Shown one piece after another: positions 15,888 to 63,230 of a stretch of 64,000 nucleotides of DNA. Both the position numbers and the translations under genes were made by a program. The stretch covers positions 1 through 64,000 of the forward strand of contig NZ_JABTEX010000006.1 in the NCBI RefSeq assembly GCF_015711645.1, read 5' to 3'. The stretch comes from Planomonospora sp. ID82291 (GTDB lineage Bacteria; Actinomycetota; Actinomycetes; Streptosporangiales; Streptosporangiaceae). The notes below the pieces were generated by a model. That model was not told the origin of the DNA, did no database searches, and worked only from the letters and a program-made list of their open reading frames with translations. How positions within the stretch are numbered: position 1 is the stretch's first letter; each line of letters opens with the position of its first letter.

Positions 15888-16243
15888 GCGGCTCGGAGAT
15901 CGGGAACGTGGTGCTGTCAGCGGTGCGGCTGGCCGTGGTCATCTCGCCCGTCATGCTGGCCGTGGGCGCGCTGGCGTTCCTGGTGGGGGCGAAGGTGGGG
16001 CGGGCGCACAGCGCACGCGAGGTGGCGCGGCTGAAGGCCCGGCTGGGCACGTTCGCGCGGGTGCTGGCTCCGCTGCCGCAGGCGCTGCGCGCCGGGCGCG
16101 GAGGCGCGTTCATCGCCCGTCAGGACCTGGCGGTGCTCGCGCTGCTGGTCGAGCACGAAGGCCCCGATGGAGAACAGCTGGTCGCGCTGGAGGAGGTGTT
16201 CCGTAACTCGCCTGCGTCACCGACGAATGGACACGTCGATTAA
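15884..16243 (+). CDS. Small membrane-anchored protein
   Basis: 119 residues from the ATG at 15884 (ATGA overlap). One strong membrane segment near the N-terminus (LAVVISPVMLAVGALAFLVG) is followed by a basic helical cytoplasmic part. It belongs to the same divergent late unit as the gene before it. Possibly lysis- or assembly-related, but nothing proves this. Confidence 0.55.
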   Translation: MSGSEIGNVVLSAVRLAVVISPVMLAVGALAFLVGAKVGRAHSAREVARLKARLGTFARVLAPLPQALRAGRGGAFIARQDLAVLALLVEHEGPDGEQLVALEEVFRNSPASPTNGHVD

Positions 16244-16286
16244 CCATCTTGTACTTTAATGATTGTTGGATCGGGGGGCGATCCCG
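16228..16286 (+). promoter_or_regulatory. TTAAC-type promoter with leader stem-loop
   Basis: -35 TGGACA (16228-16233), 16-nt spacer containing ATTAAC, -10 TGTACT (16250-16255). The leader then forms a short hairpin at 16272-16286 with stem CGGG/CCCG and loop GGGCGAT. It drives the 16331 gene and probably the plus-strand run that follows. Confidence 0.7.
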
Positions 16287-16330
16287 GTTCGGTGTCCGCC
16301 CAGGTCACAGCCATCATGAAAGGACTAGCG

Positions 16331-16696
16331 ATGGTCTTCGATCCCCTGCCGTATGAGGGCTACCTCGCAGCCGAACTGGCCGATCACGGCTTCGACGCGG
16401 GCGTCCGCGACATCGACAAGTTCGGCGACGACGCCTCACGGGCCGTCGTCACCTACCGCCTGCGCAACATCGAGGTCGCCGTCAACGAGCAGGACGGCGA
16501 CGTCACCTTGCGCGTGTACGGCGAGGACGACCCGACCTACGAGCACGGCTACGACCAGGCCACCTTCCAGCCCATGATCTACCCGCAGGTCATCCTCTCC
16601 GCGATCACAGCTGCGACCGCCACCAGCGCCGACCACGGCCACCTGGCCCGCGCCGACTCCATGGCCGCGCACCGCGCAAGCCTCACAGCCGCCTGA
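16331..16696 (+). CDS. Unknown phage protein, first gene of RNA-repair operon
   Basis: 121 residues from the ATG at 16331 behind AAAGGACTAGCG. The sequence is acidic (FGDDASRAVVTYRLRNIEVAV, TLRVYGEDDPTYEHGYDQ) with no recognised domain, signal or membrane segment. It is the first gene after a TTAAC-type promoter and leader hairpin. Confidence 0.55.
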   Translation: MVFDPLPYEGYLAAELADHGFDAGVRDIDKFGDDASRAVVTYRLRNIEVAVNEQDGDVTLRVYGEDDPTYEHGYDQATFQPMIYPQVILSAITAATATSADHGHLARADSMAAHRASLTAA

Positions 16697-16777
16697 CCGC
16701 CCTCACCCCGATGGCCTGCCTCACTCCCCTTCCCGCGCGGGGTGAGGCGGCCGCCCGCCCTCTGATCAAGGACCCTC

Positions 16778-17356
16778 ATGCCCTCCATCGACTGGCCCAC
16801 CGCCCTGCAGCGCGACCTGTGGGCCGAGCCGTACCGACCCGACGAGCGCGTCGCCATCGCCGAGATGCCCCTCCACAGCGCCGAACGGGCGTACGGCGTG
16901 CTCCTCAACCACGACAGCCTGGCCGCTGCGGCCGTGGCCAGGTACGCGATGCGCAACCCCGCCCCCGACGGGGTCGGCGACTGGTGGCCGCGCACTTCCA
17001 AGGAGCGCAGCCGCGTCCGCCGCGAGCCGCGCGAGTGGATCACCTCCACGCCGCTGGCCCGCGCGCTGAAAGGCCGCATCGACTACGTCGGCGACGTCGA
17101 CCTCACCTACGAACTGAACGACTCCAACGGCTACTGCGTCGACATGACGGTGCGCGACCTGCTGACGTACCTGCGCAACCAGCCGCTCGACGCCAAGGTC
17201 GTCGTGTTCTCCGACGCCGAAGGCAACACCGTGCATCCCGTTCATCGGGTCACCATCGACACCTTCTTCGCCGCTGGCCCCCGCAACTTCGACAACGAAC
17301 TCGTCGGCAACGGCCAGGGCGGTGTGCGCTGCGTCGCCCTGTGGCCCGCCGACTAG
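16778..17356 (+). CDS. Unknown phage protein
   Basis: 192 residues. The C-terminal half has a segment (VRDLLTYLRNQPLDAKVVVF followed by SDAEGN) of a type seen in several small actinobacterial proteins, preceded by a Trp/Arg-rich part. A strong hairpin follows the stop. Function not recognised. Confidence 0.55.
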   Translation: MPSIDWPTALQRDLWAEPYRPDERVAIAEMPLHSAERAYGVLLNHDSLAAAAVARYAMRNPAPDGVGDWWPRTSKERSRVRREPREWITSTPLARALKGRIDYVGDVDLTYELNDSNGYCVDMTVRDLLTYLRNQPLDAKVVVFSDAEGNTVHPVHRVTIDTFFAAGPRNFDNELVGNGQGGVRCVALWPAD

Positions 17357-17375
17357 CCCTTCCCTCTTCGTCTCC

Positions 17376-17397
17376 GCCCCGCCCTCACGGGCGGGGC
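17376..17397 (+). terminator. Intercistronic hairpin
   Basis: GCCCCGCCC and GGGCGGGGC pair perfectly around a 4-nt loop, 20 nt after a stop and just before the next ribosome site. It has no U tract, so it may be an attenuator or RNA-stability element. Confidence 0.5.
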
Positions 17398-17407
17398 ACC
17401 CCCACCG

Positions 17408-18052
17408 TTGAAAGGCACCGCCATCACCTACTTCGACCTGCTCGGGCAGCGCGACACGTGGATCGACCATCACGGCACCGCTCGACCGATCACCGATCTG
17501 CACCCCGACGACGCCTGGGCCGCCCGCCTATGGCTGGACCGCAACGCCGCCGCGCTCGCCGCCCACGTGGCCGCGCACGTCACCACCCTGTCCGCCAGCG
17601 ACTTGCCTGACGGCGACTGGATCCCCCGCACGCCCGACACGCTGGCATGGCTGACCGCGCGGCCCGCCGACTGGATCGCCTACACACCGCTCGGTGACGC
17701 CCTTGGCGGTCACAGCAGCGAGACCTTCAAGAAGATCGAGGACAGGGACATCCCGTTCTGGACCATCTGGATCGGCGGACACCGCCGCTGGGTCTTCGGC
17801 GGCTGCAAGAACCCCGCTGGCTACGCCAACCCCGAGGACGCCGCCGTCGAGGCCGAATGCCAGCTCACGGGCAAGACCCAAGGCTGGCTCGGCGCGACGG
17901 CAGGTCACGGCGTCACCCCGAAGGTCCACCGCACCAACTGGCTGGAGCTGGTCGAGCCGCTGGTACAGCGGGCGTTCGAGCCGCCGCCGCCCGCTCCCGA
18001 CGGCCTGCTGCCCGACGACCTGCCCGTACCCGCTCCCGCCGTCTGCGCCTGA
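17408..18052 (+). CDS. Unknown phage protein
   Basis: 214 residues as drawn from TTG at 17408. The start is doubtful: the usual ribosome site GAAAGG lies inside the first codons (TTGAAAGGCACCGCC), and by the spacing used in this region the start would be ATC at 17426, a rare codon. The protein is Trp- and Asp-rich (LDRNAAALAAHVAAHV, DWIPRTPDTLAWLTARPADW) with no named domain. Confidence 0.5.
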   Translation: MKGTAITYFDLLGQRDTWIDHHGTARPITDLHPDDAWAARLWLDRNAAALAAHVAAHVTTLSASDLPDGDWIPRTPDTLAWLTARPADWIAYTPLGDALGGHSSETFKKIEDRDIPFWTIWIGGHRRWVFGGCKNPAGYANPEDAAVEAECQLTGKTQGWLGATAGHGVTPKVHRTNWLELVEPLVQRAFEPPPPAPDGLLPDDLPVPAPAVCA

Positions 18053-18064
18053 CCCCCTTCTCCT

Positions 18065-18094
18065 GCGGGTGGGAGCCGTACGGCTCCCACCCGC
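18065..18094 (+). terminator. Palindromic intercistronic hairpin
   Basis: A 30-nt perfect palindrome (each arm reads GCGGGTGGGAGCCGT or its complement) directly after the 17408 gene. The centre must open to form a loop. Confidence 0.5.
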
Positions 18095-18118
18095 CTCAAC
18101 CCCGAAAGCTCCCCGCCG

Positions 18119-18295
18119 TTGCCTGAGCATCAGCCGCCCGCTGGCGCCGACGGCCTGGCCGGCGAGATCGCCGACGCGGTCACCGCCTTCACCGGCTTCA
18201 CCCCGACCTGCGGACCAGCCACCACCGGGCGGCCGCCCCACTCACCGCTGAAAGGACCCCGTTGCCCACACTGCGCCCCCTCCCGCGACCCCTGA
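18119..18295 (+). CDS. Small CxxC protein
   Basis: A 58-residue frame from TTG at 18119 behind CGAAAGCTCC, ending with CPHC in a short basic tail. It fills the gap between two supported genes. A CxxC pair could bind metal. Weakly supported because of the GC-rich background. Confidence 0.35.
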   Translation: MPEHQPPAGADGLAGEIADAVTAFTGFTPTCGPATTGRPPHSPLKGPRCPHCAPSRDP

Positions 18296-18311
18296 CCGCC
18301 GGCGGCAGGCG

Positions 18312-18563
18312 ATGAAGCCATCCCTGCTGCTGTTCGCCCTGGACATGGTCATCGCCGCGACGGTCATCGCCTTCGCCCGGAGCACCACCCGGGCCAAGGG
18401 CGCCCGCGCCGACCGCCGCGCCCTGGCCGACTACCGGACCGTCGTCGAGGAGGTCTACCAGATCGCGCTGGAGGCCCGCTCCCTCGACAACACCGCCGAC
18501 CTCATCGAAGCCAAGCTCCGCACCTTCCGCACCGCCCAGATCCGCAAGGAGTCCCGTTCATGA
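18312..18563 (+). CDS. Small membrane protein coupled to SPFH-like lipoprotein
   Basis: 83 residues with an N-terminal membrane segment (LLLFALDMVIAATVIAFARS) and a charged helical tail. It overlaps the next gene by ATGA, so the two are coupled and may form a membrane complex. Confidence 0.6.
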   Translation: MKPSLLLFALDMVIAATVIAFARSTTRAKGARADRRALADYRTVVEEVYQIALEARSLDNTADLIEAKLRTFRTAQIRKESRS

Positions 18564-19498
18564 CCCGCAAGCTCCCCACCCTGCTCGGCCTGTCCCTCCT
18601 GCTGGTGACCGCCACCGCGTGCGCCAGCGTCAACACCGAGCCAGACGAGATGTCCATCGTCTACAAGGCGGCCATGGGCTCAGCCACCACGTTCTCCAAG
18701 TGCATCGGCTCGGCCAAGCGGGAGAGCGTCTCCGTCAGCGAAAACTCCTGGACCTACCCCGCGGGGCAACTCACCTACGACTTCACCGGCGTGGCCGGCA
18801 CGCAGGCCAAGCCGATGAACGTCACCAGCAAGGACCTCGTCGTCCTGCCGGTCGGCGGCCTCGTCACCTTCCGCCTCAACCCCGACTGCGCGGTCCTGCG
18901 CACCTTTCACGAGTCCATCGGCCTGCGCAAGCGCGCCTTCCTCTACAGCACCACCAGCGGCGACTCCGACAACCCCGACGAGGCCGGTTGGAACACCGTC
19001 CTGAACACCTACCTGAGGGTTCCGCTGGACCGCGCCCTGGACGCGGCCAGCAAGGAATTCGACGCCCGCCCCCTGGTCGGTGACGCCACCATCAAGGAGC
19101 AGTGGGAAAAGCGCGTCGGCGAGCTCGCCCGCAAGTTCATCGCCGAAGCCAGCGGCGGCGAGTTCTTCTGCCAGCCGCACGCGACCACGCCCGGCTGCGG
19201 CGACATCGTCATCACCCTCAACCAGCCCGAACCGCCCAAGGCGCTCGCCGACGCCTTCACCGCCGAGCAGGCCGCCAAGGCCCAGACCCTCGCCCAGCAG
19301 CAGATCAACCGGAAGGTCAAGGCCGAAACCGAGTCCATCAAGGACCTCGTCGACCTGCTCGGACCCGACGGGGCCGTCGCCTGGAAGCACAACGAGCAGC
19401 TGCGCGAGATCCTGCGCGAGGCCGTCGCCAAGGGCGACCCGGTGATCACCCTGCCGCAGGGCAGCGGCGGCATCAACATCACCACCCCCAAGCCGTAA
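18560..19498 (+). CDS. SPFH/band-7-like lipoprotein
   Basis: 312 residues. A lipoprotein signal with a lipobox-like TATAC leads, then a beta region with a folding pattern of SPFH (band 7) proteins, two Cys residues that may pair (FCQPHATTPGC), and a long helical C-terminus with AEQAAKAQTLAQQQ-type heptads. Related 'band-7-like' membrane proteins occur in Streptomyces phages. SPFH proteins assemble into membrane rings or microdomains. In this operon it could anchor or sense at the membrane. The role is unknown. Confidence 0.6.
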   Translation: MTRKLPTLLGLSLLLVTATACASVNTEPDEMSIVYKAAMGSATTFSKCIGSAKRESVSVSENSWTYPAGQLTYDFTGVAGTQAKPMNVTSKDLVVLPVGGLVTFRLNPDCAVLRTFHESIGLRKRAFLYSTTSGDSDNPDEAGWNTVLNTYLRVPLDRALDAASKEFDARPLVGDATIKEQWEKRVGELARKFIAEASGGEFFCQPHATTPGCGDIVITLNQPEPPKALADAFTAEQAAKAQTLAQQQINRKVKAETESIKDLVDLLGPDGAVAWKHNEQLREILREAVAKGDPVITLPQGSGGINITTPKP

Positions 19499-19505
19499 CC
19501 CTTCC

Positions 19506-19536
19506 GCCGGCCACCGCCTTGCGGGCGGCGGCCGGC
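19506..19536 (+). terminator. Intercistronic hairpin
   Basis: GCCGGCC(A)CCGCC pairs with GGCGG(C)GGCCGGC across a short loop right after the lipoprotein stop and before the ligase ribosome site. Confidence 0.45.
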
Positions 19537-19565
19537 AATCCCCTCCCACCCTGAAAGGAGCAGCG

Positions 19566-20369
19566 TTGTTCTCGCTGCGCACCCCCGCCGACCTCGCCAA
19601 GGTCAACACGGCGACGAAGTACCCGTCCATCCCCACCCACCACCGCATCGACCCCCGCGGCCGCCTGCACGAAGAACCGACCGTCTTCACCGGGCCCGTC
19701 ATCGCCACCGAAAAGTGCGACGGCACCAACGCCCGCGTCCTGAAGTTCCCCGACGGCAGGTGGATGATCGGCAGCCGGAAGGACCTGCTCGCCGCCGACG
19801 GCGACCTCGTCAACGACCCCTCCCACGGCATCGTGGACGCTCTCACCGGCCTCGCCGAGACGATCCCGCCGCGTCCCGGCCAACTCGTCGCCCTGTACCT
19901 GGAGGTGTACGGCACCAAGAACCTCGGCGCGTGGAAGGAGTACGGCGACGGCGAGCCCGCCTGGAAGCTGTTCGACGCCTTCACCCTCGACCTGGACCTG
20001 CTGGAGCAGGAACGCGAAACGATCGCCTCCTGGCGGGAGCACGGCGGCCAGCCGTTCATGCCCGAGCACGACCTGCAGCAGCTGGCCCAGAGCATCGGCG
20101 TACAGGTGACACCGCGCCTGCTGGAGATCGACGGCGCCGACCTGCCGGCCAGCATCCAGGACATGCTCGCCTTCATGGAGCCCTACCGCACCACCGTGGC
20201 GGCCACCGGCCGTCCCGGTCTCAGCGAGGGCCTCGTGCTGCGCGACCCTCACCGCCGTACCATCACCAAGGCGCGTTTCCAGGACTACGACCGTACGCTG
20301 CGCCTGCGCGCCGATGAGGCCCGCGACGCATCCCGCGCGGCCCGCCGCGCCGCAGCCGCCACCCGCTGA
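19566..20369 (+). CDS. RNA ligase family protein (covalent nucleotidyltransferase)
   Basis: 267 residues from TTG at 19566 behind GAAAGGAGCAGCG. Motif I is EKCDGTNAR, with the Lys taking AMP. Downstream are LYLEVYGTKNLG (motif III region), EGLVLRDPHRR (motif IV) and KARF (motif V). This set and the size fit the Rnl2-like RNA ligase family, which seals 3'-OH/5'-phosphate nicks in RNA. It lies directly before a Thg1-like polymerase, suggesting joint repair of cleaved tRNA. No polynucleotide kinase/phosphatase is seen next to it. Confidence 0.8.
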   Translation: MFSLRTPADLAKVNTATKYPSIPTHHRIDPRGRLHEEPTVFTGPVIATEKCDGTNARVLKFPDGRWMIGSRKDLLAADGDLVNDPSHGIVDALTGLAETIPPRPGQLVALYLEVYGTKNLGAWKEYGDGEPAWKLFDAFTLDLDLLEQERETIASWREHGGQPFMPEHDLQQLAQSIGVQVTPRLLEIDGADLPASIQDMLAFMEPYRTTVAATGRPGLSEGLVLRDPHRRTITKARFQDYDRTLRLRADEARDASRAARRAAAATR

Positions 20370-20389
20370 CCCCCGCCACCCGGTAACCC

Positions 20390-20419
20390 GGTCCTCCCGC
20401 CCGCAACGGCGGGAGGACC
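20390..20419 (+). terminator. Intercistronic hairpin
   Basis: A 12-bp perfect stem (GGTCCTCCCGCC with GGCGGGAGGACC) and 6-nt loop between the ligase and Thg1 genes. Confidence 0.5.
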
Positions 20420-20453
20420 ATCACCCCCGCCAGTAAAGGACCCCCACCCCCTC

Positions 20454-21293
20454 ATGAGTGACACGACCGCCCTCGGCGACCGGATGAAGGGCTACGAGCA
20501 CGTCACCCGCGGCGTGCTGCCCCGCCGCACCTACACGATCATCCGCGTGGACGGCCGCGCCTTCCACACCTTCCTCGCCCACGCCGACCGCCCCTTCGAC
20601 GAGGCCGTCGTCGAGGCCATGAACGCAGTCGCCGTCGCCCTGTGCGGCCAAGCCCAGGGTGCGGTGTTCGCCTACACCCAGTCCGACGAGTGCAGCCTCC
20701 TGCTGACCGACTTCGCCTCCCGCACCACCCAGCCGTGGTTCGGCGGCGTCATCCAGAAGATCGCCAGCATCTCCGCCGCCGTCGCCTCTGTCGCCTTCAA
20801 CCAGGCCTACGGCTACCACTACGACGACGCCTGCGCCGTCTTCGACGCCCGTGTCTTCACCCTCCCCGACGCCGTGGAGGTCGCCAACTACTTCCTGTGG
20901 CGCCAGCGCGACTGCGTCCGCAACTCGATCACGATGGCCGCCCAGGCCCGCTTCTCCCACCGCCAGCTCCAGGGCGTCACCACTGAGCAGATGCAGGAGA
21001 TGCTGTGGCAAGGACACGGCATCAACTGGAACGACTACCCGGCCGGGATGAAACGCGGCCGCGTCATCGTCCGCGACACCGCCGAACGCGACATCACCTA
21101 CACCGACCGGCGCACCAGCCAGACGACGACCACGCAGGTCCTGCGCTCGGCCTGGACCGCGCAGGACGCGCCGCACTTCACCGCCGATCCGTCCGGCTGG
21201 CTCGCCGCCACCATCCCCGCCCAGGCCGCCCTGGCCCCCGCGGCGCCGGCGGCTACGGGCCACTTCCTGCCGGAGGTCGCGGGTGAGCACTGA
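20454..21293 (+). CDS. Thg1-like tRNA 3'-5' polymerase (tRNAHis guanylyltransferase family)
   Basis: 279 residues. The metal-binding acidic residues of the Thg1 palm domain are visible in RVDGRAFHTF and TQSDECSLLL, and a Thg1-type GHGINWNDY segment follows. Thg1-like proteins add nucleotides 3'-to-5' at RNA 5' ends, and the bacterial and archaeal forms repair truncated tRNA 5' ends. Next to an RNA ligase it suggests a phage tRNA-repair unit. It overlaps the following small gene by ~11 nt. Confidence 0.88.
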   Translation: MSDTTALGDRMKGYEHVTRGVLPRRTYTIIRVDGRAFHTFLAHADRPFDEAVVEAMNAVAVALCGQAQGAVFAYTQSDECSLLLTDFASRTTQPWFGGVIQKIASISAAVASVAFNQAYGYHYDDACAVFDARVFTLPDAVEVANYFLWRQRDCVRNSITMAAQARFSHRQLQGVTTEQMQEMLWQGHGINWNDYPAGMKRGRVIVRDTAERDITYTDRRTSQTTTTQVLRSAWTAQDAPHFTADPSGWLAATIPAQAALAPAAPAATGHFLPEVAGEH

Positions 21294-21717
21294 ACGCGGC
21301 GACCGCTGCCCTGACTGCCGTGCCGCACCCAGTCTCGGCCACCTGCCGAACTGCGACGTGGCCCGCTGCCCCGAATGCGGCGTCCAACGCGTCCAGTGCG
21401 AAGACCACACCTCCTCGCGCAGGTCATCGATCTGGACGGGCCGCTGGCCGGGAGAGGCAGAAGCCGAACGGGAAGGCTGGTGGGCGCACTTCGTTGAGGG
21501 CAACGGCTGGGCGGAGTGCGGACCTGACCAGCCCGGGGCCATGCCCGACCTGAACCGTGTCGCCCGTGCCGGCCTGGTCACCGGCGACCTGGTGTGGGAC
21601 CGCTCCGCCCAGCAGTGGATCCCGCCGGGGGAGCGGCCGCGCCGCTACGGGAAAGGACGCGCGGCGGCGCCTTCACTCAAGCGAGCAGGCGCAACACCCA
21701 CCATTTCCCTTAAGTAA
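21283..21717 (+). CDS. Zinc-ribbon protein downstream of Thg1
   Basis: 144 residues from GTG at 21283, overlapping the Thg1 end. The N-terminus has CPDC and CPEC pairs plus further Cys residues (a zinc ribbon). The middle has an aromatic segment (GWWAHFVEGNGWAECGPDQP). It could bind nucleic acid or protein. Coupling to Thg1 suggests a shared task, but this is inference. Confidence 0.55.
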   Translation: MSTERGDRCPDCRAAPSLGHLPNCDVARCPECGVQRVQCEDHTSSRRSSIWTGRWPGEAEAEREGWWAHFVEGNGWAECGPDQPGAMPDLNRVARAGLVTGDLVWDRSAQQWIPPGERPRRYGKGRAAAPSLKRAGATPTISLK

Positions 21718-21765
21718 CCACGCTGTACTAAATTCATTGAAACACGGGGGGAGCGGTCTCCTGTG
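21713..21765 (+). promoter_or_regulatory. TTAAC-type promoter variant with leader stem-loop
   Basis: AGTAACC stands in the spacer, with -10 TGTACT at 21724-21729; the -35 is weak. The leader hairpin at 21743-21765 has arms beginning CACGG and ending CTGTG, and loop GAGCGGT, one base from the consensus GAGCGAT. It drives the 21786 gene. Confidence 0.6.
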
Positions 21766-21785
21766 CTTTCACGAAAAGGACCCTG

Positions 21786-22352
21786 ATGACCACCGACTAC
21801 GTCTGGAGCCTGCACGAGATCGGCCCGCCCGGAGGCGAGAGAACGCGCGCGTTCCTTCACCTGCGGGACTGCGGATGCGGCCTGGATCCGTTCGCCGTCA
21901 GCGGCCAGATCCGCGCCCGCAGCGCCGTCCAGGCCGTCGCCCTGGCCTGGCCCGAGATCCACGCTGCAGGCGGCACCAGCCACGGCAACGCCGAATGCGT
22001 CCTGGCCGCCAGCGGAGCGCCCGCGCCCGCCTGGACCGCCGACCTGCTCGACGCCCTGGACGGCGTGGACATGAGCGCGCCGGAGAAGGCCGCGCTCTAC
22101 CGGCTGGCCCGCCACGCCGACGGCGCCGTGCTGGCCACACTGATCCGCCGCGCCCGCGCCCTCGAGCACCAGGTGCTGGGCGACATCGGCATGGAGCTCG
22201 GCCAGTGGATCGCCTGCGGTGCCGACGTCGCGCGAGCACAGGAAGAGTTCGCGCCCGCCGACGTGGCGATGGAGCGGGAGCGGGCCCGCGACGACGCCGC
22301 CGCCCGGGTATGCGAGCGCCTGCGAGCTCACCTGGTGCCCGCCGCCGGCTGA
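21786..22352 (+). CDS. Unknown phage protein
   Basis: 188 residues behind AAAAGGACCCTG. A CGCG-containing N-terminal part is followed by mostly helical sequence (ALYRLARHADGAVLATLIRR, DVARAQEEFAPADVAMERER). No known domain. It sits alone between its own promoter/leader and a strong terminator, so it is a monocistronic unit. Confidence 0.55.
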   Translation: MTTDYVWSLHEIGPPGGERTRAFLHLRDCGCGLDPFAVSGQIRARSAVQAVALAWPEIHAAGGTSHGNAECVLAASGAPAPAWTADLLDALDGVDMSAPEKAALYRLARHADGAVLATLIRRARALEHQVLGDIGMELGQWIACGADVARAQEEFAPADVAMERERARDDAAARVCERLRAHLVPAAG

Positions 22353-22364
22353 GCCGCCGACGAA

Positions 22365-22396
22365 GAAGGGGGTCTGCGACGCTGCGGACCCCCTTC
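22365..22396 (+). terminator. Terminator hairpin
   Basis: A 10-bp stem (GAAGGGGGTC with GACCCCCTTC) after the 22352 stop, followed by a short A/T-rich run. Confidence 0.65.
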
Positions 22397-22457
22397 ACCA
22401 TTATCGAACACATGTACGGAGAGGAGTGCATCGGATGCGACGTGCGACCATAGTGGT

Positions 22458-22718
22458 ATGGCCGTACGCAACGTCACTTTCGTCGTCCCACCGGGGCTGA
22501 CCGTCGACGACCTGAGGACCTGGTCGATGGCGTGCGCCACCGGCAAGCACGGCACCTGCAAGGGGTACCGCATCAACCCCGACCCGGCCGCCACCGGAGA
22601 GGACACGAGCCTGCCCTGCGACTGCAGCATCTGCACGCATACGCCCGGCGGAGGCGGCGGCCGCCCGTACAAGGAACGCCCCGCGACCGGCGTCCTCGAA
22701 GGCGACGACGCGACCTAA
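22458..22718 (+). CDS. Small Cys-rich protein
   Basis: 86 residues with CDCSIC and two further Cys residues (CATGKHGTC), a probable metal-binding cluster. CATAGTGGT just before the ATG could be a -10 box giving a leaderless transcript. Function unknown. Confidence 0.5.
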   Translation: MAVRNVTFVVPPGLTVDDLRTWSMACATGKHGTCKGYRINPDPAATGEDTSLPCDCSICTHTPGGGGGRPYKERPATGVLEGDDAT

Positions 22719-22722
22719 GCTC
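22707..22722 (+). promoter_or_regulatory. GACCTAAGCTC element
   Basis: GACGCGACCTAAGCTC matches GATGCGACGTAAGCTC at 14 of 16 positions and ends 24 nt before the GTG at 22746. It overlaps the end of the previous gene and may drive the methyltransferase/packaging operon. Confidence 0.45.
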
Positions 22723-22745
22723 ACCCGCCTGATACTCCTCCCGGC

Positions 22746-22943
22746 GTGACCACGCCGATCTTCAACGCGCTCGCCGCCGAGTACGCGGCCGACTGCGCCC
22801 TTCCTGCCCCTCCAGCGCCACAGGCCGCCCAGGGAACCCCGGCCGCGCCTCGCGACTGGTTCACCCCTGCATCCCCGGCCGGTGCCGCTGACCCGTTCAC
22901 CGGTCCGCCCGCTGACGTGCCCGCCGCAGCGGTGAGCGCATGA
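22746..22943 (+). CDS. Small Pro/Ala-rich protein
   Basis: 65 residues, with an N-terminal helix (TTPIFNALAAEYAADC) then a Pro/Ala-rich tail. GTG start; it overlaps the next gene by ATGA. It is the first gene of the operon downstream of the 22707 element. Function unknown. Confidence 0.45.
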   Translation: MTTPIFNALAAEYAADCALPAPPAPQAAQGTPAAPRDWFTPASPAGAADPFTGPPADVPAAAVSA

Positions 22944-23149
22944 GCGGCCGCCCCTCCCCCTCCGCCCAGGGCTGCGCCCTGCTCATCGAGCAGGTCGTTC
23001 GACTCCTGGCCGTGATCGCTCTCAGCTGGAGCGCGCTGACCACCCCTCACCTGGGGCTGGCCATCCTCACCTGGGCCCTGGCGGCCCTGTTCACTCTCGC
23101 CCTCATCGTCAGCCCTCTGACGCGGCATCTGGCAGGGAGCAGCCGATGA
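22940..23149 (+). CDS. Small two-helix membrane protein
   Basis: 69 residues with two hydrophobic helices (LLAVIALSW and LGLAILTWALAALFTLALIV). Overlaps both neighbours by 4 nt. The size and topology would fit a holin, but its distance from the endolysin (30 kb) argues caution. Confidence 0.5.
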   Translation: MSGRPSPSAQGCALLIEQVVRLLAVIALSWSALTTPHLGLAILTWALAALFTLALIVSPLTRHLAGSSR

Positions 23150-24087
23150 ACGACCTCACCCGCGACAACGCCACCCCCTTCGCCGACGCCGTCACCCCCA
23201 CGCCCGCCGAGCCGTACTGGAGCAGCGACAGCGCCGCCATCTACAAGGGCGACATCCTGTCCGTTCTGCCCGCCCTGCCCACCGGCAGCGTCGACGCCGT
23301 CATCGCCGACCCGCCGTACTCCTCCGGCGGCGTGTCCATCGCCGAACGCAAGCGCTCCACCCGCACCAAGTACGTCTCCGGTTCGGCCGGCGACATCGCA
23401 CATGAGAACCCGGACTTCCCCGGCGACCAGCGCGACCAGCGCTCGTGGACGTTCTGGTCCACGCTGTGGATGACCGAGGCGCTGCGCCTGACCAAGCCAG
23501 GCGGTTCGATCCTGGTGTTCACCGACTGGCGCCAGCTGCCCTCCACCACCGACGCCATGCAGGCCGCCGGCTGGACCTGGCGCGGCGTCGTCAACTGGGT
23601 CAAGCCCCGAGGCCGCTCCCGGCCGATCCGCGGCGGCTTCTGGAACCAGGCCGAGTACGCCGTCTGGGGCGTCAACGGCTCCATCCAGAAGGACTACGAG
23701 GTGTACCTGCCGGGCGCGATCGAAGCCCGCGCCCCCGTCGGCGCCAACCGCATCCACCAGACGGAAAAGCCCGTCGACCCGCTCCTGACCACGCTCGTGC
23801 GCGTCGCCCCACCCGGCGGCCTCATCCTGGACCCGTTCACCGGATCCGGCTCCACCGGCGTGGCCGCACAGATGCAGGGCCGCCGCTTCATCGGCATCGA
23901 GATCACCGACCACTACGCCAAGGTCGCCGCCGACCGGCTGTCGCGGCCCACGCTCGCCACCGCCCCCGATACGGCCGGCGCCGCCAGCGACCCCGAGCAG
24001 CCGCCCGCCGAGCCCGCCCACGACGCGCCCGGCACCGCCGGCGACCCGCCCGCCCTGTTCGTCCCGGCGCCCAGGAGCGGCCAGTGA
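23146..24087 (+). CDS. Beta-class DNA N4-cytosine/N6-adenine methyltransferase
   Basis: 313 residues. Catalytic motif IV IADPPYSSGG comes before the AdoMet motif I LDPFTGSGSTG, the order of beta-class amino-methyltransferases. IHQTEKPVDPLLT is the usual segment before motif I. No restriction endonuclease is nearby, so it is an orphan, as phages use to protect their DNA. It overlaps the next methyltransferase gene by 4 nt. Target site and base cannot be read from sequence. Confidence 0.85.
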   Translation: MNDLTRDNATPFADAVTPTPAEPYWSSDSAAIYKGDILSVLPALPTGSVDAVIADPPYSSGGVSIAERKRSTRTKYVSGSAGDIAHENPDFPGDQRDQRSWTFWSTLWMTEALRLTKPGGSILVFTDWRQLPSTTDAMQAAGWTWRGVVNWVKPRGRSRPIRGGFWNQAEYAVWGVNGSIQKDYEVYLPGAIEARAPVGANRIHQTEKPVDPLLTTLVRVAPPGGLILDPFTGSGSTGVAAQMQGRRFIGIEITDHYAKVAADRLSRPTLATAPDTAGAASDPEQPPAEPAHDAPGTAGDPPALFVPAPRSGQ

Positions 24088-24779
24088 GCCTGCCCACCCC
24101 GTTCTACGCCGACGAGCTGGTGACGCTCTACAACGCCGACGCGCTGGAGATTCTCGCCGAGCTCGCCCCCGGCGACGTCGACCACGTCGTCACCGACCCG
24201 CCGTACCAGACGACCGGCACCTCCTGGGCGACCAGGGCCAGCTCCTGGGCCGACACGATGAACACCGCGCACTGGTTCACCAGCTGGTACCGGCACGTGA
24301 CCCGCATCCTGCCCGAGCACGGCAGCTTCTGGTCGTGCTGCAACTGGCGGACCCTACCGATCGTGCAGCGCGCCGCCCACGACGCCCGCCTGGATGTGAC
24401 CTCTGTGGCGGTCTGGCACAAAGACGCCATCCGCACCGGTTCCCCGCGCGGACTGCGCTCCGACCACGAGCTCATCGCCATCATGGCCAAGAGCGCCTTC
24501 CGCATCTCCGACCGCTCCGCCGGCGATGTGTGGACCATCAAGACCAGCACGAAGAAGGCACACGGCCATCCCGCGGAAAAGCCCCTGGCCATCCCGGCCC
24601 GCATCATCGACCTCATCCAGCCCGCACCCGGGCAGGTGATCCTCGACCCGTTCTCCGGTTCGGGAACGACCGCAGAAGCCGCCAAGCGGCGCGGCCTCAA
24701 GGTGATCGCCGTCGAAGCCGACAGCGCCTGGTGCGACACGATCGCCCGCCGCCTGGCCGCCACCCCGCCGCCCGCGTAA
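24084..24779 (+). CDS. Second beta-class DNA methyltransferase
   Basis: 231 residues from GTG at 24084. Motif IV is TDPPYQTTG and motif I is LDPFSGSGTTAEAAKRRG, again in beta order, with HPAEKPLAIPARII before motif I. It is shorter than its neighbour and only distantly similar, so the two probably modify different sites. Tandem coupling suggests a combined anti-restriction role. Confidence 0.85.
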   Translation: MSLPTPFYADELVTLYNADALEILAELAPGDVDHVVTDPPYQTTGTSWATRASSWADTMNTAHWFTSWYRHVTRILPEHGSFWSCCNWRTLPIVQRAAHDARLDVTSVAVWHKDAIRTGSPRGLRSDHELIAIMAKSAFRISDRSAGDVWTIKTSTKKAHGHPAEKPLAIPARIIDLIQPAPGQVILDPFSGSGTTAEAAKRRGLKVIAVEADSAWCDTIARRLAATPPPA

Positions 24780-24950
24780 CCGCCCGGTGGCCCCTGAGCC
24801 CGGGGCCACACCGGCGCCTTCCATCCCCATCGCGGGTGCCCGATCCCTGCGGGGAGACGGCCGCAGGTGAGCCGAAGCGACGTTAACTCGCAAATGTGTC
24901 ACACTCCGCCCGCACCGTCCGACCCGGCCGACAAGGGGACAGCGCTGCCC

Positions 24951-25451
24951 GTGTTCACAACCGTCTTCACCCACTGCTTCAACGCCAGCCACCAACTGCC
25001 CTACCTGCGCGGCGAGCGCGGCGGACTGCACGGGCACACCTGGCAGGCCGCGTTCACCGTCGTTGCCGGCTCCCTGGACGAGCACGGCCGCCTGCTTGAC
25101 GAAGCGGCCTTTGCCGCACGGATGACGACCTTCATCGACGCTCGCCTGGCCAACGCCACCCTCCTCGGACACCGTGACCCGTTCGCCCCGATCATGGACG
25201 GCCACGGCAAGAAGCTGTTCCTGTTCGGCGGCGACTACGACGGCGCCGCCTGGCCCACCGCCGGCGCGGTCGCGCTGCTGCTCGCCCACCACGCCCACGG
25301 CTGGCTGACCGAGACAGCCGACCGCGCAGACCTTCACCTGGCCTCGGTGACCATCGCCCCGTCCGGTGCCAACCCCACCACGTGGCACAACCCCGCCCAC
25401 GCCCTCGTACCCGCTCCCCGGCCGATCCCAGCCTCCGCTCTGGCCGCCTGA
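24951..25451 (+). CDS. 6-pyruvoyltetrahydropterin synthase/QueD-like protein
   Basis: About 166 residues from GTG at 24951 (starts at 24867 or 24894 also possible). The zinc His pattern NASHQL and LHGHTW is clear, with a later Glu/His region (ADLHLASVTIAPSGANPTTW). QueD makes 6-carboxytetrahydropterin for preQ0, and phages use this route for 7-deazaguanine DNA. The Cys normally four residues before HGH is Arg here, so catalysis may differ. No queC, queE, folE or dpdA is in the window. Confidence 0.65.
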   Translation: MFTTVFTHCFNASHQLPYLRGERGGLHGHTWQAAFTVVAGSLDEHGRLLDEAAFAARMTTFIDARLANATLLGHRDPFAPIMDGHGKKLFLFGGDYDGAAWPTAGAVALLLAHHAHGWLTETADRADLHLASVTIAPSGANPTTWHNPAHALVPAPRPIPASALAA

Positions 25452-25481
25452 CCCACCCCGCCTTTCAAGGAGATCCCCACC

Positions 25482-26099
25482 ATGACCACCGCCACCGCTG
25501 CCGACGTCGTCACCGTCACCCTGCCCCGCGACCAGGCCGACGCCCTCTTGAAGGTCGCCGCCCTCCTGGACCGGGCCGTCAGCGACCAGGTCGTCCTGTC
25601 GCCTGCGCCGCAGACCGCGCTGCCGCTCACCAGCCAGCGCAAGCCGTACGACGCCGTCGACCGCGCCACCGCCGCCTCCATCCGCGACCACATCGTCACC
25701 GCGCTCGACCGCGCCGGCGTTGTCGGTCTGACCACCGCCGACGTCGTCGACCTCATGAAGAGCAGCAACCTCGTCACCCATGCCAGCCACGGCCGCGCCA
25801 CCTACGCCCTGACGGTTCTGGAGAAGGACGGGCGCATCTTCCGCCACGGCATCGGCCTCATCACCTGGTACGCCGCCCGGCACCGGGAACCGTTCGTCGC
25901 CTCCCTGATGGCCAAGCTGCCCGAGCACGACCTGACCACCGTCGAAGCCGCCGACGTCCTCGGGCTGGGACCCGGCAGTGTCCGCACCCTCATCGACGCC
26001 CAGCAGCTCACCTCGCGGCGGGTCGGGAACGCCACCGTCGTGCACCGAGCCTCCCTCGCTGCCTACATCAACAAGATCGGAACTACGGAGGCCCTATGA
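25482..26099 (+). CDS. Two-domain winged-helix/excisionase-like DNA-binding protein
   Basis: 205 residues. Residues ~60-125 look like a winged helix (AASIRDHIVTALDRAGVVGL). Residues ~150-205 resemble the excisionase-family helix-turn-helix (TTVEAADVLGLGPGSVRTLI then RRVGNATVVHRASLAAYI). It directly precedes and overlaps (ATGA) a small-terminase-like gene. A regulatory or DNA-packaging recognition role is plausible. Confidence 0.6.
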   Translation: MTTATAADVVTVTLPRDQADALLKVAALLDRAVSDQVVLSPAPQTALPLTSQRKPYDAVDRATAASIRDHIVTALDRAGVVGLTTADVVDLMKSSNLVTHASHGRATYALTVLEKDGRIFRHGIGLITWYAARHREPFVASLMAKLPEHDLTTVEAADVLGLGPGSVRTLIDAQQLTSRRVGNATVVHRASLAAYINKIGTTEAL

Positions 26100-29566: not shown

Positions 29567-29586
29567 GATGGGCCCTTCCTGGTTGC

Positions 29587-29654
29587 GGCGGGAGGATCGC
29601 ACCCCTCCCGCCTGAACAATTAAAATAGTACAGGGGAGTTAATTAGAGAGGCAA
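29587..29654 (-). promoter_or_regulatory. TTAAC-type promoter with leader stem-loop
   Basis: Minus strand: -35 TTGCCT (29649-29654), 16-nt spacer with ATTAAC, -10 TGTACT (29627-29632). The hairpin 29587-29612 has 9-bp arms GGCGGGAGG/CCTCCCGCC and loop GGTGCGAT. The hairpin is identical to the one at 31468-31493. Confidence 0.78.
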
Positions 29655-30480
29655 ATCTACGAGAGCACGGGGAAAGCGCAGCTCACCGGGGTAAATCACC
29701 GCACCCGGAAGCCGGACGAGGGCCGGGCACAGCACCGCCTCGAGGGACGCGCCGGGCAACTCGGCCACCCGGCACGTACGGCCGGCACGGTCCGCGCTGG
29801 GCGGCGTTCGCCGCGTCGCGGCAGGGCGCTGGGCGGTGCGGAAGGACCGCCTCGAGCGCGCCGCCGTGCGCAGCACGGTGCCTGCCGCACGGCGCGGCGG
29901 CGGGGTGGTGGGGTGGGGAGAGAGCCGCCTCGAGGGCGCGCCGCTCGCGGCGGAGGACTCGGGGGGAGGGGACGGCGCGGCGGGCACCCGTGCCTCGAGC
30001 GCGCTGCCGTACGGCGCGGCGGGGCGGGTGGTGCCTGCCGTGCGGGGCGGCGCGGTGGGCTCCGCCGTGCGGGGCGGTGCGGTGGGCTCCGCCGTGCGGG
30101 GCGGTGCGGTGCCTGCCGTACGGCAGGCGGGGCGGGAGAGGACCGCCTCGAGCGCGCCGCCGTACGGTGCGGTGCCTGCCGTGCGGCGCGGCACGGGGCG
30201 GGGCGGTGGATCTCGGGCGGCGGGGCGGTGGATCTCGGGCGGCGGGGTGGTGCCTGCCGTACGGCGCGGCGGAGGACTCGGGGGGACGGTGCGGGGCGGC
30301 GCGGTGGGTTCCGCTGTGCGGGGCGGCGTGGGCGGCGGGGCGGGGCGGGTTGGTGCGGGGACGGGGGAGCCCCCGCCCGTGGTTGTCGGGCGGGGGCTCG
30401 GGCGGTGCTGGGGCGGTGCTGGGGGTGGGTTCCCCTCGTGCGGGGTGGGGTGCCCGCCCCGTGTGCGGGGCGGGCGGGCA
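29655..30480. repeat. Noncoding direct-repeat region, candidate origin or centromere
   Basis: About 0.8 kb of very GC-rich sequence without a credible gene. GCCTCGAG occurs about five times (near 29735, 29850, 29927, 29992 and 30145). GTGCCTGCCG recurs about five times between 29878 and 30260. A ~27-bp unit starting GGTGGGCTCCGCCGTGCGG is in tandem near 30054-30110, and GGCGGTGGATCTCGGGCGGC is repeated near 30205-30245. Iteron-like arrays of this kind are known at replication origins and partition sites; here that is only a suggestion. Confidence 0.5.
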
Positions 30481-30484
30481 GGGG

Positions 30485-31444: not shown

Positions 31445-31467
31445 GGTGGGCCCTTCCTGGTGGGGGT

Positions 31468-31534
31468 GGCGGGAGGATCGCACCCCTCCCGCCCGAACAA
31501 GAAAAACAGTACAGGAGTATTAGCAAGGCGGCAA
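31468..31534 (-). promoter_or_regulatory. TTAAC-type promoter variant with leader stem-loop
   Basis: Minus strand: -35 TTGCCG (31529-31534), 15-nt spacer with CTAATAC in place of TTAAC, -10 TGTACT (31508-31513). Hairpin 31468-31493 has arms GGCGGGAGG/CCTCCCGCC and loop GGTGCGAT. Sequence beyond the -35 (GCAAATCTACG) also matches the 29.6-kb copy. Confidence 0.7.
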
Positions 31535-49794: not shown

Positions 49795-50421
49795 TTGACC
49801 CGCATCTACTACGACACCGAATTCCACGACACGGGCAGCAGCATCGACACCATCTCCATCGGCCTGGTCGCCGGCGAACGCGAGTACTACGCCGTCAGCG
49901 CCGACTTCGACCAGAAACGGGTGTACGGCCACGAGTGGCTGCGCGCCAACGTGATGCCGCACCTGCCGCTGGCCAGCGGCCCGGCCGCGCCGGACGCATG
50001 GCTCGACCTGAACCATCCGCACGTCAAACCGCGCGCCCAGATCGCCGAGGAGGTGTATGCGTTCATCGCGGCGGCCCCCGAGCCGGAGCTATGGGCGTAC
50101 TACAGCGCCTTCGACCACGTCGCTCTGGCGTGGCTGGCCGGTCGGCCCATGGTGCAGCTGCCCCGCGGGGTGCCGTGGCGGACCAACGACCTGGAGCAGG
50201 AGGCCGCCCGGCTCGGTAACCCCAAGCTGCCGGTACAGGAGGCCGGTGAGCACTACGCCCTAGCCGATGCCCGGCACAACCAGGTGGTGGGGGAGTACCT
50301 GGCCGAGCTGGCCGAGCGCCGAGTCCCGCTCAACGGGCGCCTGTACGACGTCGCCGCCTTTGAGTGGAACGACGGCTTCGCGGGAGAGGAGCGGTGGACG
50401 GTGTACGGCCATCGTGTGTGA
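49795..50421 (+). CDS. Rv2179c-like 3'-5' exonuclease (DEDD type)
   Basis: 208 residues from TTG at 49795 behind CAGGAGCACCTG. Exo I motif YYDTEFHDTG supplies the D and E. AYYSAFDHVALAW is the exo II region, and HYALADARHNQ is exo III, with H and D. The mycobacterial relative Rv2179c degrades RNA 3' ends in vitro. Here it may trim RNA alongside the ligase and Thg1 functions of the same element. Last gene of its operon. Confidence 0.72.
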   Translation: MTRIYYDTEFHDTGSSIDTISIGLVAGEREYYAVSADFDQKRVYGHEWLRANVMPHLPLASGPAAPDAWLDLNHPHVKPRAQIAEEVYAFIAAAPEPELWAYYSAFDHVALAWLAGRPMVQLPRGVPWRTNDLEQEAARLGNPKLPVQEAGEHYALADARHNQVVGEYLAELAERRVPLNGRLYDVAAFEWNDGFAGEERWTVYGHRV

Positions 50422-56423: not shown

Positions 56424-56946
56424 GGCCGCCGCCCAGCGGGTGGCCCAGGACGCCTTCGGCACGGCGCCCGGTGGCGCCCGAGGACCGGCGCGCTTCGGCG
56501 GCCGCCATGCTCATCACGGCGGTGGCGAACGCTTCGGCCTCCTTCTCTTCAGGTGTATCGTAGGTGGAACGGGCCGCGGCCGCGCGGGCGATCACCGTGG
56601 GCGGCAGGTGAGGGAAGGTCTGCTGCAGCAGGGCGATCACATTTCCTTCTGAGGTGGCAGACTGGTCGTGACCGGCGACGATGTGTCCCAGCTCGTGGGC
56701 GGCGACCTGCGCTTTGAGCGCCGGGATGCGGGCATAGCCGGCGTCGATGAACAAGTAGTCGATGTTGTCGTCGCCCAGCACCCACAGGCCGCACCAGCCG
56801 GCGCGGGACAGGCCGGTGATGACGTCGAGCTGGATTGTCCTGTCGAGCGCGACGCTGAAGTGGTCGACCAGCGTCTCAGCGGTCACAGGGTAGGGGAGCC
56901 CTACCTGCTTCAGGACCCGCCGAGGATCGAACGTGTCACGCTGCAC
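56416..56946 (-). CDS. ImmA/IrrE-like metallopeptidase, cassette copy 1
   Basis: 176 residues from GTG at 56946 behind AAAGGGGCTGATAC. The zinc motif HELGHIVAGHD (HExxH) sits in the middle, and a helical region with EEKEAEAFATAV follows, as in ImmA/IrrE peptidases that cleave or regulate XRE repressors. It lies between an XRE gene and the membrane protein. These proteins are often annotated as toxins without proof. Confidence 0.75.
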   Translation of the reverse strand: MQRDTFDPRRVLKQVGLPYPVTAETLVDHFSVALDRTIQLDVITGLSRAGWCGLWVLGDDNIDYLFIDAGYARIPALKAQVAAHELGHIVAGHDQSATSEGNVIALLQQTFPHLPPTVIARAAAARSTYDTPEEKEAEAFATAVMSMAAAEARRSSGATGRRAEGVLGHPLGGGRG

Positions 56947-57476: not shown

Positions 57477-57487
57477 CTGCCCGGCTC

Positions 57488-62139: not shown

Positions 62140-62664
62140 TCAGCGCCACACCGGCTGAGCTGTAGGAGTGATCTTCCACCAGGTGGGTGCGGCCGCGCGG
62201 GCCGCTGCGGTGAACGTCGCCGCAGCCTCGGCAGTGGCGAAGACGACCGTGGTGTAGTCGTTGCCGCCGACCCGGGCGTGCACGGGACCGGTCTCCTCGG
62301 CCAACTGGGGCACCCACTCGTAGATGAGGTGGGCGGCCTGGGCGTCCTGGGCGTCGCCGTGCGCGATCGAGACCGGGTGAAGCCCGTGGGCGGCCAGTTC
62401 GGCCTCGGCCACGCCAGGCTGTCCCCCCATCACCTGCTGCATCGCCTGGATACGTTCGACGGCGCGCGCGACCTCCTCAGTGGTCAGCGTCTCAGCCGCC
62501 GGGGGAGCGGCGGGTGCAGCCTGACGCAGGCCGGTTCCGTGGCAGGTGGCGCAGTCGCCGCCGAAGAAGACCGCCCCGTGGCAGGACCGGCAGGAGCAGC
62601 TCGTGCATAGGCCGGGCCCGTAGTCGCAGGGCCCGCCGCAGCGGGTACACGTCGAACAGCTCAC
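62140..62664 (-). CDS. Protein with DnaJ-type zinc fingers
   Basis: 174 residues. The N-terminal ~50 residues carry at least four CxxC pairs (CTRCGGPC, CTSCSCRSCHGA, CATCHGTG), like DnaJ central zinc fingers. A linker and a C-terminal alpha/beta part follow (EWVPQLAEETGPVHARVGGN). It is coupled by ATGA to the HAD gene and may present it a substrate. Function unknown. Confidence 0.6.
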   Translation of the reverse strand: MSCSTCTRCGGPCDYGPGLCTSCSCRSCHGAVFFGGDCATCHGTGLRQAAPAAPPAAETLTTEEVARAVERIQAMQQVMGGQPGVAEAELAAHGLHPVSIAHGDAQDAQAAHLIYEWVPQLAEETGPVHARVGGNDYTTVVFATAEAAATFTAAARAAAPTWWKITPTAQPVWR

Positions 62665-63230
62665 CAGGCCGCCCGCGCCCGAAGGGCATCGAGCCAGGTG
62701 TCCACGCTGGCGATGTCGTCGAGGGTGAGCGCGTAGGCGGGGTCGACGTGGACGATCAGGGTGGCGATGCCGCCGGCGGTGCGGTCTTCAGCCCAGATGA
62801 GGTCCTTGCCGCCGAAGGCGTTGTCCACCCACACCAGCGGCCGGTCACCGATGTACTTGCAGACGGCGCCGAACTTGCCGACGCGACCCCAGGTGATGGT
62901 GCTGTCGTAGAGGCTGATCGGGATGACCGGAAGTTCGGGCAGCCCGAAGACGGGACAGATGCAGGCGTTCGCGGTCGCCCCCCAGGACGTGGCCCATACG
63001 ATTTCCACACCGGCGTCGGCGACATCGCGCAGCCAGGCGCCGTGGGCGGGGTTGAGCAGCACCTCGCCGTTGACGACATCGCCCGTGGGGGTGGGGCCGG
63101 TGTAAAGGTGGTGCTTGTACGGCGGCAGGCCAGCCGCCTCGGCGCGGGAGGCGACGTGGGTGTTGCGGGGGTTCAGGACGTCGTCGACGTCCAGCGCGAG
63201 GATGGGGCGCGTGCCGGTAGTGGAAGCCAT
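62661..63230 (-). CDS. HAD-superfamily protein of the RNA-repair-associated (SAK) type
   Basis: 189 residues. Motif I is LALDVDDVLNPRN (DxDxV). WATSWGATANACICPVFGLP is the motif II region, and WVDNAFGGKDLIWAEDRTAG fits motif IV. I recall this HAD subfamily as the 'Swiss Army Knife' RNA repair HAD domain found in actinobacteria; that link is from memory. It could remove end phosphates from RNA and so complement the ligase. First gene after the 63300-63325 promoter. Confidence 0.65.
   Translation of the reverse strand: MASTTGTRPILALDVDDVLNPRNTHVASRAEAAGLPPYKHHLYTGPTPTGDVVNGEVLLNPAHGAWLRDVADAGVEIVWATSWGATANACICPVFGLPELPVIPISLYDSTITWGRVGKFGAVCKYIGDRPLVWVDNAFGGKDLIWAEDRTAGGIATLIVHVDPAYALTLDDIASVDTWLDALRARAAW

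Follow-up and report, generated by a model that had tools for sequence, protein, structure and literature searches.

Do an RNA ligase and a Thg1-like polymerase that are encoded side by side in a bacterial genome take part in the repair of broken tRNA, and does that repair serve a phage? The question is raised by a window of DNA (the whole stretch analysed here, bases 1-64000 of a 201,469-base contig) from the 7.58-Mb genome of the actinobacterium Planomonospora sp. ID82291, in which 84 genes were called. The original prediction for this locus placed both enzymes in one phage operon, as parts of a repair or counter-defence set acting on both ends of damaged tRNA. We find that both enzymes were correctly recognised, and we put at about 0.5 the probability that they are two RNA-end enzymes from the RNA-repair complement of a tailed (pro)phage, which need not form an obligate pair; a role for them in tRNA repair is plausible. 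The two genes are:

19566..20369, + strand: compact RNA ligase of 267 amino acids (aa), nucleotidyltransferase domain only, TTG start (PF09414, motifs, structure model)
20454..21293, + strand: Thg1-like protein of 279 aa (PF04446, Thg1C, phrog_4717, BtTLP PDB 4kgk)

The ligase had been noticed by its EKCDGTNAR motif, and all further evidence agrees with that assignment. The protein matches the Pfam family RNA_ligase (PF09414, E = 7e-14, 52.7 bits with a cut-off of 27) and the PHROG RNA ligase (E = 5e-7), an AAAGGAG box stands 5' of its TTG start, and the motif EKCDGTN begins at residue 49. The catalytic residues are complete (E49-K50-x-D52-G53, E113..G116, F136-D137, E221-G222..R226 and K235-A-R237). 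In an alignment of 23 ligases, consisting of the window protein and 22 relatives with 35-59% identity to it (12 from other searches and 10 of the 35 ligases from viral contigs; L175 and L177 were omitted, with a stop in L177), the adenylation lysine K50 and residues G53, E113, G116, D137, E221, G222, R226, K235 and R237 are invariant, and D52 and F136 are at least 90% conserved. These columns we take to be nucleotidyltransferase motifs I, III, IIIa, IV and V. No solved relative was found by sequence search. The structure model has a mean predicted local distance difference test (pLDDT) of 87 and a predicted template modelling score (pTM) of 0.83, and its best folds in the PDB are the T4 Rnl2, Naegleria, archaeal and trypanosome editing RNA ligases. 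RNA ligases occupy ranks 1-26 of the 50 listed matches (73 had E <= 0.001) and the first DNA-ligase entry stands at rank 27; the modelled fold shows the class to be RNA ligase rather than DNA ligase. The motifs and the top fold matches are shared with the T4 RNA ligase 2 family (PF09414; isolated nucleotidyltransferase domain, PDB 1s68), from whose T4 member the window ligase differs in its short length, in an identity of only 15-16% and in the absence of the C-terminal domain of full-length Rnl2, since in the model the chain ends 30 residues past motif V, mostly as one helix. Because that domain is absent, we class the protein as a member of PF09414 and not as a full Rnl2.

The second enzyme had been described as a Thg1 palm protein, and this too is confirmed. 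It matches PF04446 (E = 1.7e-26) and Thg1C (PF14413, E = 1.8e-8), both above the cut-off, with catalytic and C-terminal domains present, as well as phrog_4717 (E = 3e-78). The nearest solved structure is BtTLP (4kgk, E = 6e-54; 45% identity over 211 aligned residues), and of the BtTLP active-site residues checked all but K43 (see below) are kept, eight in number (window residue given before that of BtTLP: E15=E12, R31=R28, D33=D30, H38=H35, D78=D75, E79=E76, R150=R147, M161=M158). The metal carboxylates D33, D78 and E79 are invariant in 19 Thg1 sequences. The window protein differs from BtTLP in its C-terminal tail (APHFTA..GWLA motif), which is common to three close relatives from bacterial genomes, and it carries GINWNDY at residue 189 in place of the HINNLYN of eukaryotic Thg1, and M161 where human Thg1 has N. 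Because most of the active-site residues of BtTLP are kept and HINNLYN is replaced by GINWNDY, the protein is, judged by its sequence, of the Thg1-like protein (TLP) end-repair type and not a eukaryotic Thg1. Since BtTLP, a characterised 5'-end-repair enzyme, is in the phage lineage too, we infer on good grounds that the window protein would carry out 3'-5' end repair.

That lineage was traced in a tree of 48 Thg1 sequences (Thg1 is present in 123 of 50,697 phage records). The window protein lies in a 12-row clade (100/100) together with eight viral-contig sequences of high G+C (0.66-0.73), which presumably come from actinophages, and three sequences from bacterial genomes, and it falls apart from human and yeast Thg1. 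BtTLP is found within a six-row clade of Bacillus and Staphylococcus phages (100/99) and matches 127 phage records, the best being Bacillus phage BM15 with 80.6% identity. Long branches link the two halves of the tree, whose root is arbitrary; neither BtTLP nor the window protein would be placed differently for that reason. The tree shows the window Thg1 to belong to a phage lineage, and the supposedly bacterial BtTLP also falls in it. A recent gain of the gene from the host family was considered and is ruled out, as nine Thg1 from nine host-family genomes, presumed to be chromosomal (only one of them, L005, is seen to sit in a single 11.5-Mb contig), form a separate and more distant clade (99/91). 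In the searched text of the BtTLP structure paper the word 'phage' does not occur (PMC3701042), and neither 'phage' nor 'virus' occurs in that of a 2019 review (PMC6471195), which calls the biological substrates of bacterial Thg1-like proteins unidentified; the search on this point extended to these two texts only.

The surroundings of the two genes bear out the label 'phage' for the tail but not for the head. Genes for minor tail proteins, a tape measure and a major tail protein lie in the left part of the window (PHROG scan), and further phage-type matches are to a small terminase (among 27 scanned proteins) and an amidase, whereas PHROG scans of the window proteins recognised neither a capsid nor a portal nor a large terminase. 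For this reason we do not claim completeness; by its gene content the region is a (pro)phage-like element of tailed-phage type. Megablast gave no near phage record for positions 16000-26000. Contig C15 of a related genome (G004) has the same tail module and accessory genes in a partly kept order. ParA- and replication-initiation-like proteins lie near its tail module (65311-111856; L406, L052, L053), and their presence suggests that C15 may be a plasmid-like phage relative, possibly a phage-plasmid. No capsid was found among ten C15 proteins scanned, of which two gave decoration- or fibre-like matches.

On the reading we prefer, the Thg1-like protein would activate a 5'-monophosphate RNA end with ATP and add templated nucleotides in the 3'-to-5' direction, restoring 5'-shortened tRNAs, and the ligase would seal 5'-phosphate/3'-hydroxyl nicks in RNA. 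According to the structure paper, activation by Thg1 enzymes takes place at 5'-monophosphate ends, and the reaction preferred by Thg1-like proteins is the repair of 5'-damaged tRNAs on a Watson-Crick template; BtTLP likewise prefers 5'-damaged tRNA and acts on 5'-monophosphate ends (PMC3701042). For ATP-grasp ligases a 5'-phosphate and a 3'-hydroxyl end are stated to be required (PMC7824862). Scans of 81 of the 84 called window genes (76 with Pfam, five with PHROGs only) revealed no kinase/phosphatase of polynucleotide kinase (PNK) type; the other 137 kb of the contig (64-201 kb) lay outside this search. As both enzymes depend on a 5'-phosphate and the search of the window gave no kinase, the most fitting damage would be that of metal-dependent tRNA nucleases, with 5'-phosphate and 3'-hydroxyl ends, and not the 5'-hydroxyl and cyclic-phosphate ends made by PrrC- or colicin-type nucleases. 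PIN-domain nucleases such as VapC may leave 5'-phosphate and 3'-hydroxyl ends too, and the host genome has 16 PIN-domain matches, as well as its own RtcB. AriB of the PARIS defence is reported to leave 3'-hydroxyl ends, which were demonstrated, and 5'-phosphate ends, which were expected (PMC12409363). The phage would benefit by keeping tRNAs functional despite cleavage by the host or by a rival element.

The genes found beside other phage Thg1 genes fit such a role. RlaP, HAD_SAK_2, RNA ligase, PNK-like, PNKP-like phosphatase and Ro60 genes recur there, with RlaP at 7, HAD_SAK_2 at 7, a PF09414 ligase at 4 and a PNK-like gene at 3 of 98 phage or prophage Thg1 loci; families were named from one or two representatives each, and the near-copy look of L135/L137, L122/L123 and L138/L140 (identical scores) leaves fewer independent cases. 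Genes for nicotinamide phosphoribosyltransferase (NAMPT, at 7 loci) and YqeY-like proteins (at 5) recur there as well. In one viral contig (L088:3001-4990) Thg1, RlaP and a PNKP-like phosphatase follow each other with successive 4-base overlaps, and in another (L092:1352-3783) RlaP and a similar phosphatase stand just upstream of Thg1; both are likely to be phage RNA-repair clusters. A third locus (L087:1113-4557) has, in order, a Ro60-like protein (40% identical over 581 columns to that of Streptomyces phage Kela), a small open reading frame (ORF), a Thg1 59% identical to that of the window and an Rnl1-type ligase (PF09511, E = 1e-12) that runs off the contig end. In G004:C15 three genes follow one another: a truncated homologue of a window exonuclease (listed below), an 86-aa ORF that ends in the C-terminal motif of Thg1 (34 residues with 59% identity) and a ligase (48%). 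The similarity to the C-terminal tail in another genome, G066, looks like a broken Thg1 remnant. At L026:717-2079 a protein with helix-turn-helix and HIT domains shares 11 bases with the start of a Thg1 gene (68% identity); adenylated ends are possible substrates of HIT enzymes.

For comparison we took antipodal windows on the same contigs. The neighbour tally, which counts the Thg1s as well, covers 142 proteins from 21 loci, each 110 aa or longer, and the neighbour set scanned for families comprised 61 hand-picked proteins from 19 of them (L093 and L094 omitted; the L087 ligase and L088 RlaP scanned apart); the antipodal set, which is not exactly matched to it, takes in every complete protein of that minimum length in 20 windows, 123 in total. 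Among the 25 families (of 31) that were listed for these 123 proteins there was no RlaP, HAD_PNKP or ligase; TROVE (2) and HIT (1) proteins also occur in these windows.

Several observations weigh against the preferred reading. The TROVE matches in antipodal windows mean that Ro60 is just a common protein of these phages. At R46 the window protein departs from BtTLP, whose residue there, K43, contacts ATP in the activation step (PMC3701042). One study links VapC to a repair operon responsive to tRNA fragments with cyclic phosphates (PMC7790460), and this argues in the opposite direction as to the kind of ends to be repaired. The claim of one operon also fails to convince. The genes for a lipoprotein (listed below), the ligase and Thg1 do lie on the same strand, with gaps of 67 and 84 bases, but hairpins stand in both gaps, and one of them separates ligase and Thg1:

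19506..19536, + strand: strong hairpin in the lipoprotein-ligase gap (fold of 19499-19565, -32.6 kcal/mol)
20390..20419, + strand: perfect 12-bp hairpin with no T run in the ligase-Thg1 gap (sequence fold)

Because of these hairpins a single operon for ligase and Thg1 is doubtful. Similar structures are common in this DNA: positions 16000-62200 contain perfect stems of 9-18 bp, mostly without T runs, 24 between called genes and 11 within genes, although genes make up 83% of the window. We also know of no activity shown for any member of this ligase branch.

The counts of ligase and Thg1 in other phages weigh on the same side. A Thg1 scan of viral contigs gave at least 537 relatives, of which the best 80 were kept and 50 (at least 40 kb, in rank order) were used for the ligase count; as a control, the best 80 of 346 matches to a NAMPT bait were kept and 48 contigs of at least 40 kb used. 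PF09414 ligases occur in 21/50 Thg1 contigs (17 above the cut-off) and in 21/48 NAMPT contigs (17 above the cut-off). Conversely, of 35 viral contigs that carry a ligase of this branch, 7 have Thg1 (in one of them the ligase match is weak, E = 9e-6), as do 7/29 of those of at least 40 kb, compared with 4/48 NAMPT contigs (p = 0.19 and 0.09, respectively). Thg1 and ligase are within 10 kb of each other in 8/21 contigs (4.9 expected, P = 0.08) and within 5 kb in 3/21 (2.7 expected), and for NAMPT and ligase the distance is up to 10 kb in 8/21 (5.3 expected). Any repair gene is found within 3 kb in 11/50 Thg1 windows and 6/50 antipodal windows (p = 0.29), a ligase in 4 and 4, and RlaP in 6 and 1 (p = 0.11); outside this test, repair genes lie within 3 kb at 11/30 other Thg1 loci and in 1/15 named phages. 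A PF09414 ligase is present in 8 of the 15 named Thg1 phages, mostly the larger ones, and missing from 7, and the two named phages tested with this ligase branch, Streptomyces phage Kela and a Nodularia phage, are both without Thg1. The NAMPT control is not neutral, since NAMPT adjoins Thg1 at 7/98 loci, which works against seeing a link, and the antipodal windows were added for that reason; the repair-gene models for RlaP, HAD, PNK and one ligase derive from families seen next to Thg1 and tilt the comparison towards a link. The controls thus have flaws on either side. Two other control baits were rejected, a DNA methylase (contigs of 5-66 kb, unused) and an exonuclease (no matches). Coordinates for the Fisher tests and distances were transcribed by hand from the scan outputs. 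Both genes thus do co-occur in other phages, as had been asked of them, but not significantly above the control, and a fixed Thg1-ligase partnership is not supported in the comparisons made. A conserved pair as a general rule was accordingly dropped, with ligase frequencies equal in Thg1 and control contigs and distances not clearly below chance.

The other members of the proposed set, and the genes that flank the pair, are:

18560..19498, + strand: lipoprotein of 312 aa with weak SPFH/Band-7 similarity (phrog_200 'lipoprotein', E = 7e-7; Band_7 19.3 bits, cut-off 23.6)
21283..21717, + strand: small zinc-ribbon-like protein with cysteine pairs, overlapping the end of Thg1 by 11 bases
49795..50421, + strand: Rv2179c-like 3'-5' exoribonuclease of DEDD type (PF16473, E = 2e-8), 29 kb from Thg1
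62661..63230, - strand: HAD_SAK_2 protein (PF18143, E = 3e-6, 27.9 bits, cut-off 27.5), 41 kb from Thg1

Their earlier descriptions fared unevenly. The first gene does encode a lipoprotein, whereas its SPFH character is weak and below the Pfam cut-off. The cysteine pairs of the supposed zinc ribbon are seen; no Pfam match is better than E = 0.09 and the coding score is weak, but the gene is real, because it has a 41% homologue (E = 9e-19) in the G004 contig. The DEDD exonuclease is upheld by its Rv2179c-like match. The HAD protein is just above the cut-off for its RNA-repair-linked type, and with its position on the opposite strand and 41 kb away its link to the pair is unsupported.

What, then, could explain the two genes other than a shared repair complement? 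They may be chance neighbours: in the early region of a mosaic phage two accessory genes with no relation to each other, each useful alone, could lie together without functional coupling. Neither enrichment nor closeness is significant above the controls, many intergenic gaps of the window contain hairpins, that between ligase and Thg1 included, and the spread of the two genes differs in 198 related genomes (own genome included), with the ligase in 8 and Thg1 in 14, two of these by a C-terminal remnant only; in two genomes (G067 and G098) the ligase and a distant Thg1 are on different contigs. This is a quite possible explanation, if somewhat short of even odds, but it does not account well for the ligase that stays beside the Thg1 remnant in G004, nor for the different ligase family directly downstream of the close Thg1 relative in L087. 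A T4-like counter-defence, in which the pair, the exonuclease and the HAD phosphatase would repair tRNAs cut by PrrC or RloC and act on both ends of the break, is very unlikely. All four components are present, and the idea has been published for jumbo phages (PMC7824862), but no kinase was recognised among 81 of the 84 called window genes, and breaks of the PrrC type are stated to require end healing first if an ATP-type ligase is to seal them (PMC7824862, PMC3400036); AAA_13 (PrrC/RloC-type) gave no match in the host genome at E 0.001, and the HAD match is marginal and, like the exonuclease, far from the pair. Because no kinase was found in the window and no AAA_13 in the host, we demote the T4/PrrC model, and with moderate confidence we prefer to it a reading in which the substrates repaired are breaks with a 5'-phosphate and 5' ends that have been shortened. 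Of the repair or counter-defence set as first conceived, what stands are the intact enzymes, a Thg1 of the phage and BtTLP repair type and the recurrence of repair genes near phage Thg1; the T4-like scenario with its distant exonuclease and HAD protein does not. That Thg1 serves to add G-1 to tRNA-His during infection, with an unrelated ligase, agrees with the name and founding function of the family (PMC6471195) and is hardly probable at all: G-1 is described as gene-encoded in most bacteria (PMC6471195), the protein has GINWNDY and M161 at the positions given above, and no tRNA-His gene was found on the contig (ARAGORN, contig scanned in pieces).

A bolder version of 5'-phosphate repair divides the labour without a kinase: Thg1 would fill 5'-side gaps in RNA and leave adenylated (App) 5' ends, which the minimal ligase would join, and in a phage gap-repair kit directed against metal-dependent tRNA nucleases Thg1 would be the part that stays while its partners are exchanged. 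We consider it unlikely, though it draws on the use of truncated T4 ligase 2 with pre-adenylated adapters, as in the methods of one study (PMC12409363), and BtTLP is reported to accumulate adenylated 5' ends where it has no suitable template and to accept an external template (PMC6471195). The partners found at the Thg1 slot in sister phages are RlaP and a phosphatase, or Ro60 and an Rnl1 ligase.

The preferred reading, of two RNA-end enzymes in one phage repair complement, is in line with published systems. Anantharaman 2010 described bacterial gene neighbourhoods in which Thg1 is accompanied by polynucleotide kinase, MACRO and RNA ligase, and proposed RNA repair including ligation via App ends, and viral use of it against host defences (PMC2904730). 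The idea of repair by Thg1 and RNA ligase has thus been in print since 2010, and the window pair is a further example of it; as in those neighbourhoods Thg1 adjoins an RNA ligase, but here the pair is phage-borne and no PNK or MACRO gene was recognised in the window. The jumbo-phage RNA-repair sets described by Iyer 2021 contain ATP-grasp ligases, RlaP, HAD 'Swiss-army-knife' phosphatases and, sporadically, Thg1 (PMC7824862). The window shares with them the combination of ligase, Thg1 and HAD enzyme, and differs in being an actinobacterial prophage-like element in which no RlaP, PNK or credible tRNA gene was recognised. Streptomyces phage Kela has a ligase of the same branch (41.5%), whose partner is a Ro-like RNA-binding protein.

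Some other features of the contig are recorded here. ARAGORN gave one tRNA hit in the window and another at 182.8 kb; the former, a tRNA-Trp at 16965-17060, falls within a called protein gene (16778-17356) and is probably spurious. A 1.4-kb inverted repeat with 99.65% identity (window 30084-31516, contig 183136-184567) encloses the gene for a 319-aa protein with weak filamin-like similarity, and another piece of 153 bases is repeated at 29573-29725 and 185095-185247. Positions 23146-25451 hold a DNA methylase (23146), probably a second methylase (24084) and a QueD-like 6-pyruvoyl-tetrahydropterin synthase (24867), which possibly serve DNA or tRNA base modification. Two DUF6545 proteins (55362 and 58063) are encoded on the minus strand at 55362-59124, one with a homologue in the G004 element.

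The analysis adds to the published systems an actinobacterial prophage-like example with a ligase reduced to its catalytic domain, related viral contigs in which Thg1 has other partners, a test in which no general co-occurrence of Thg1 and ligase was found, and the phage lineage of BtTLP. The compact ligase is a natural candidate partner for the adenylated ends reported for BtTLP (PMC6471195), and if the division of labour between the two enzymes is true, the enzymology of BtTLP would be phage biology. If phage RNA repair is the real task of bacterial Thg1-like proteins, the question of their substrates becomes directly testable.

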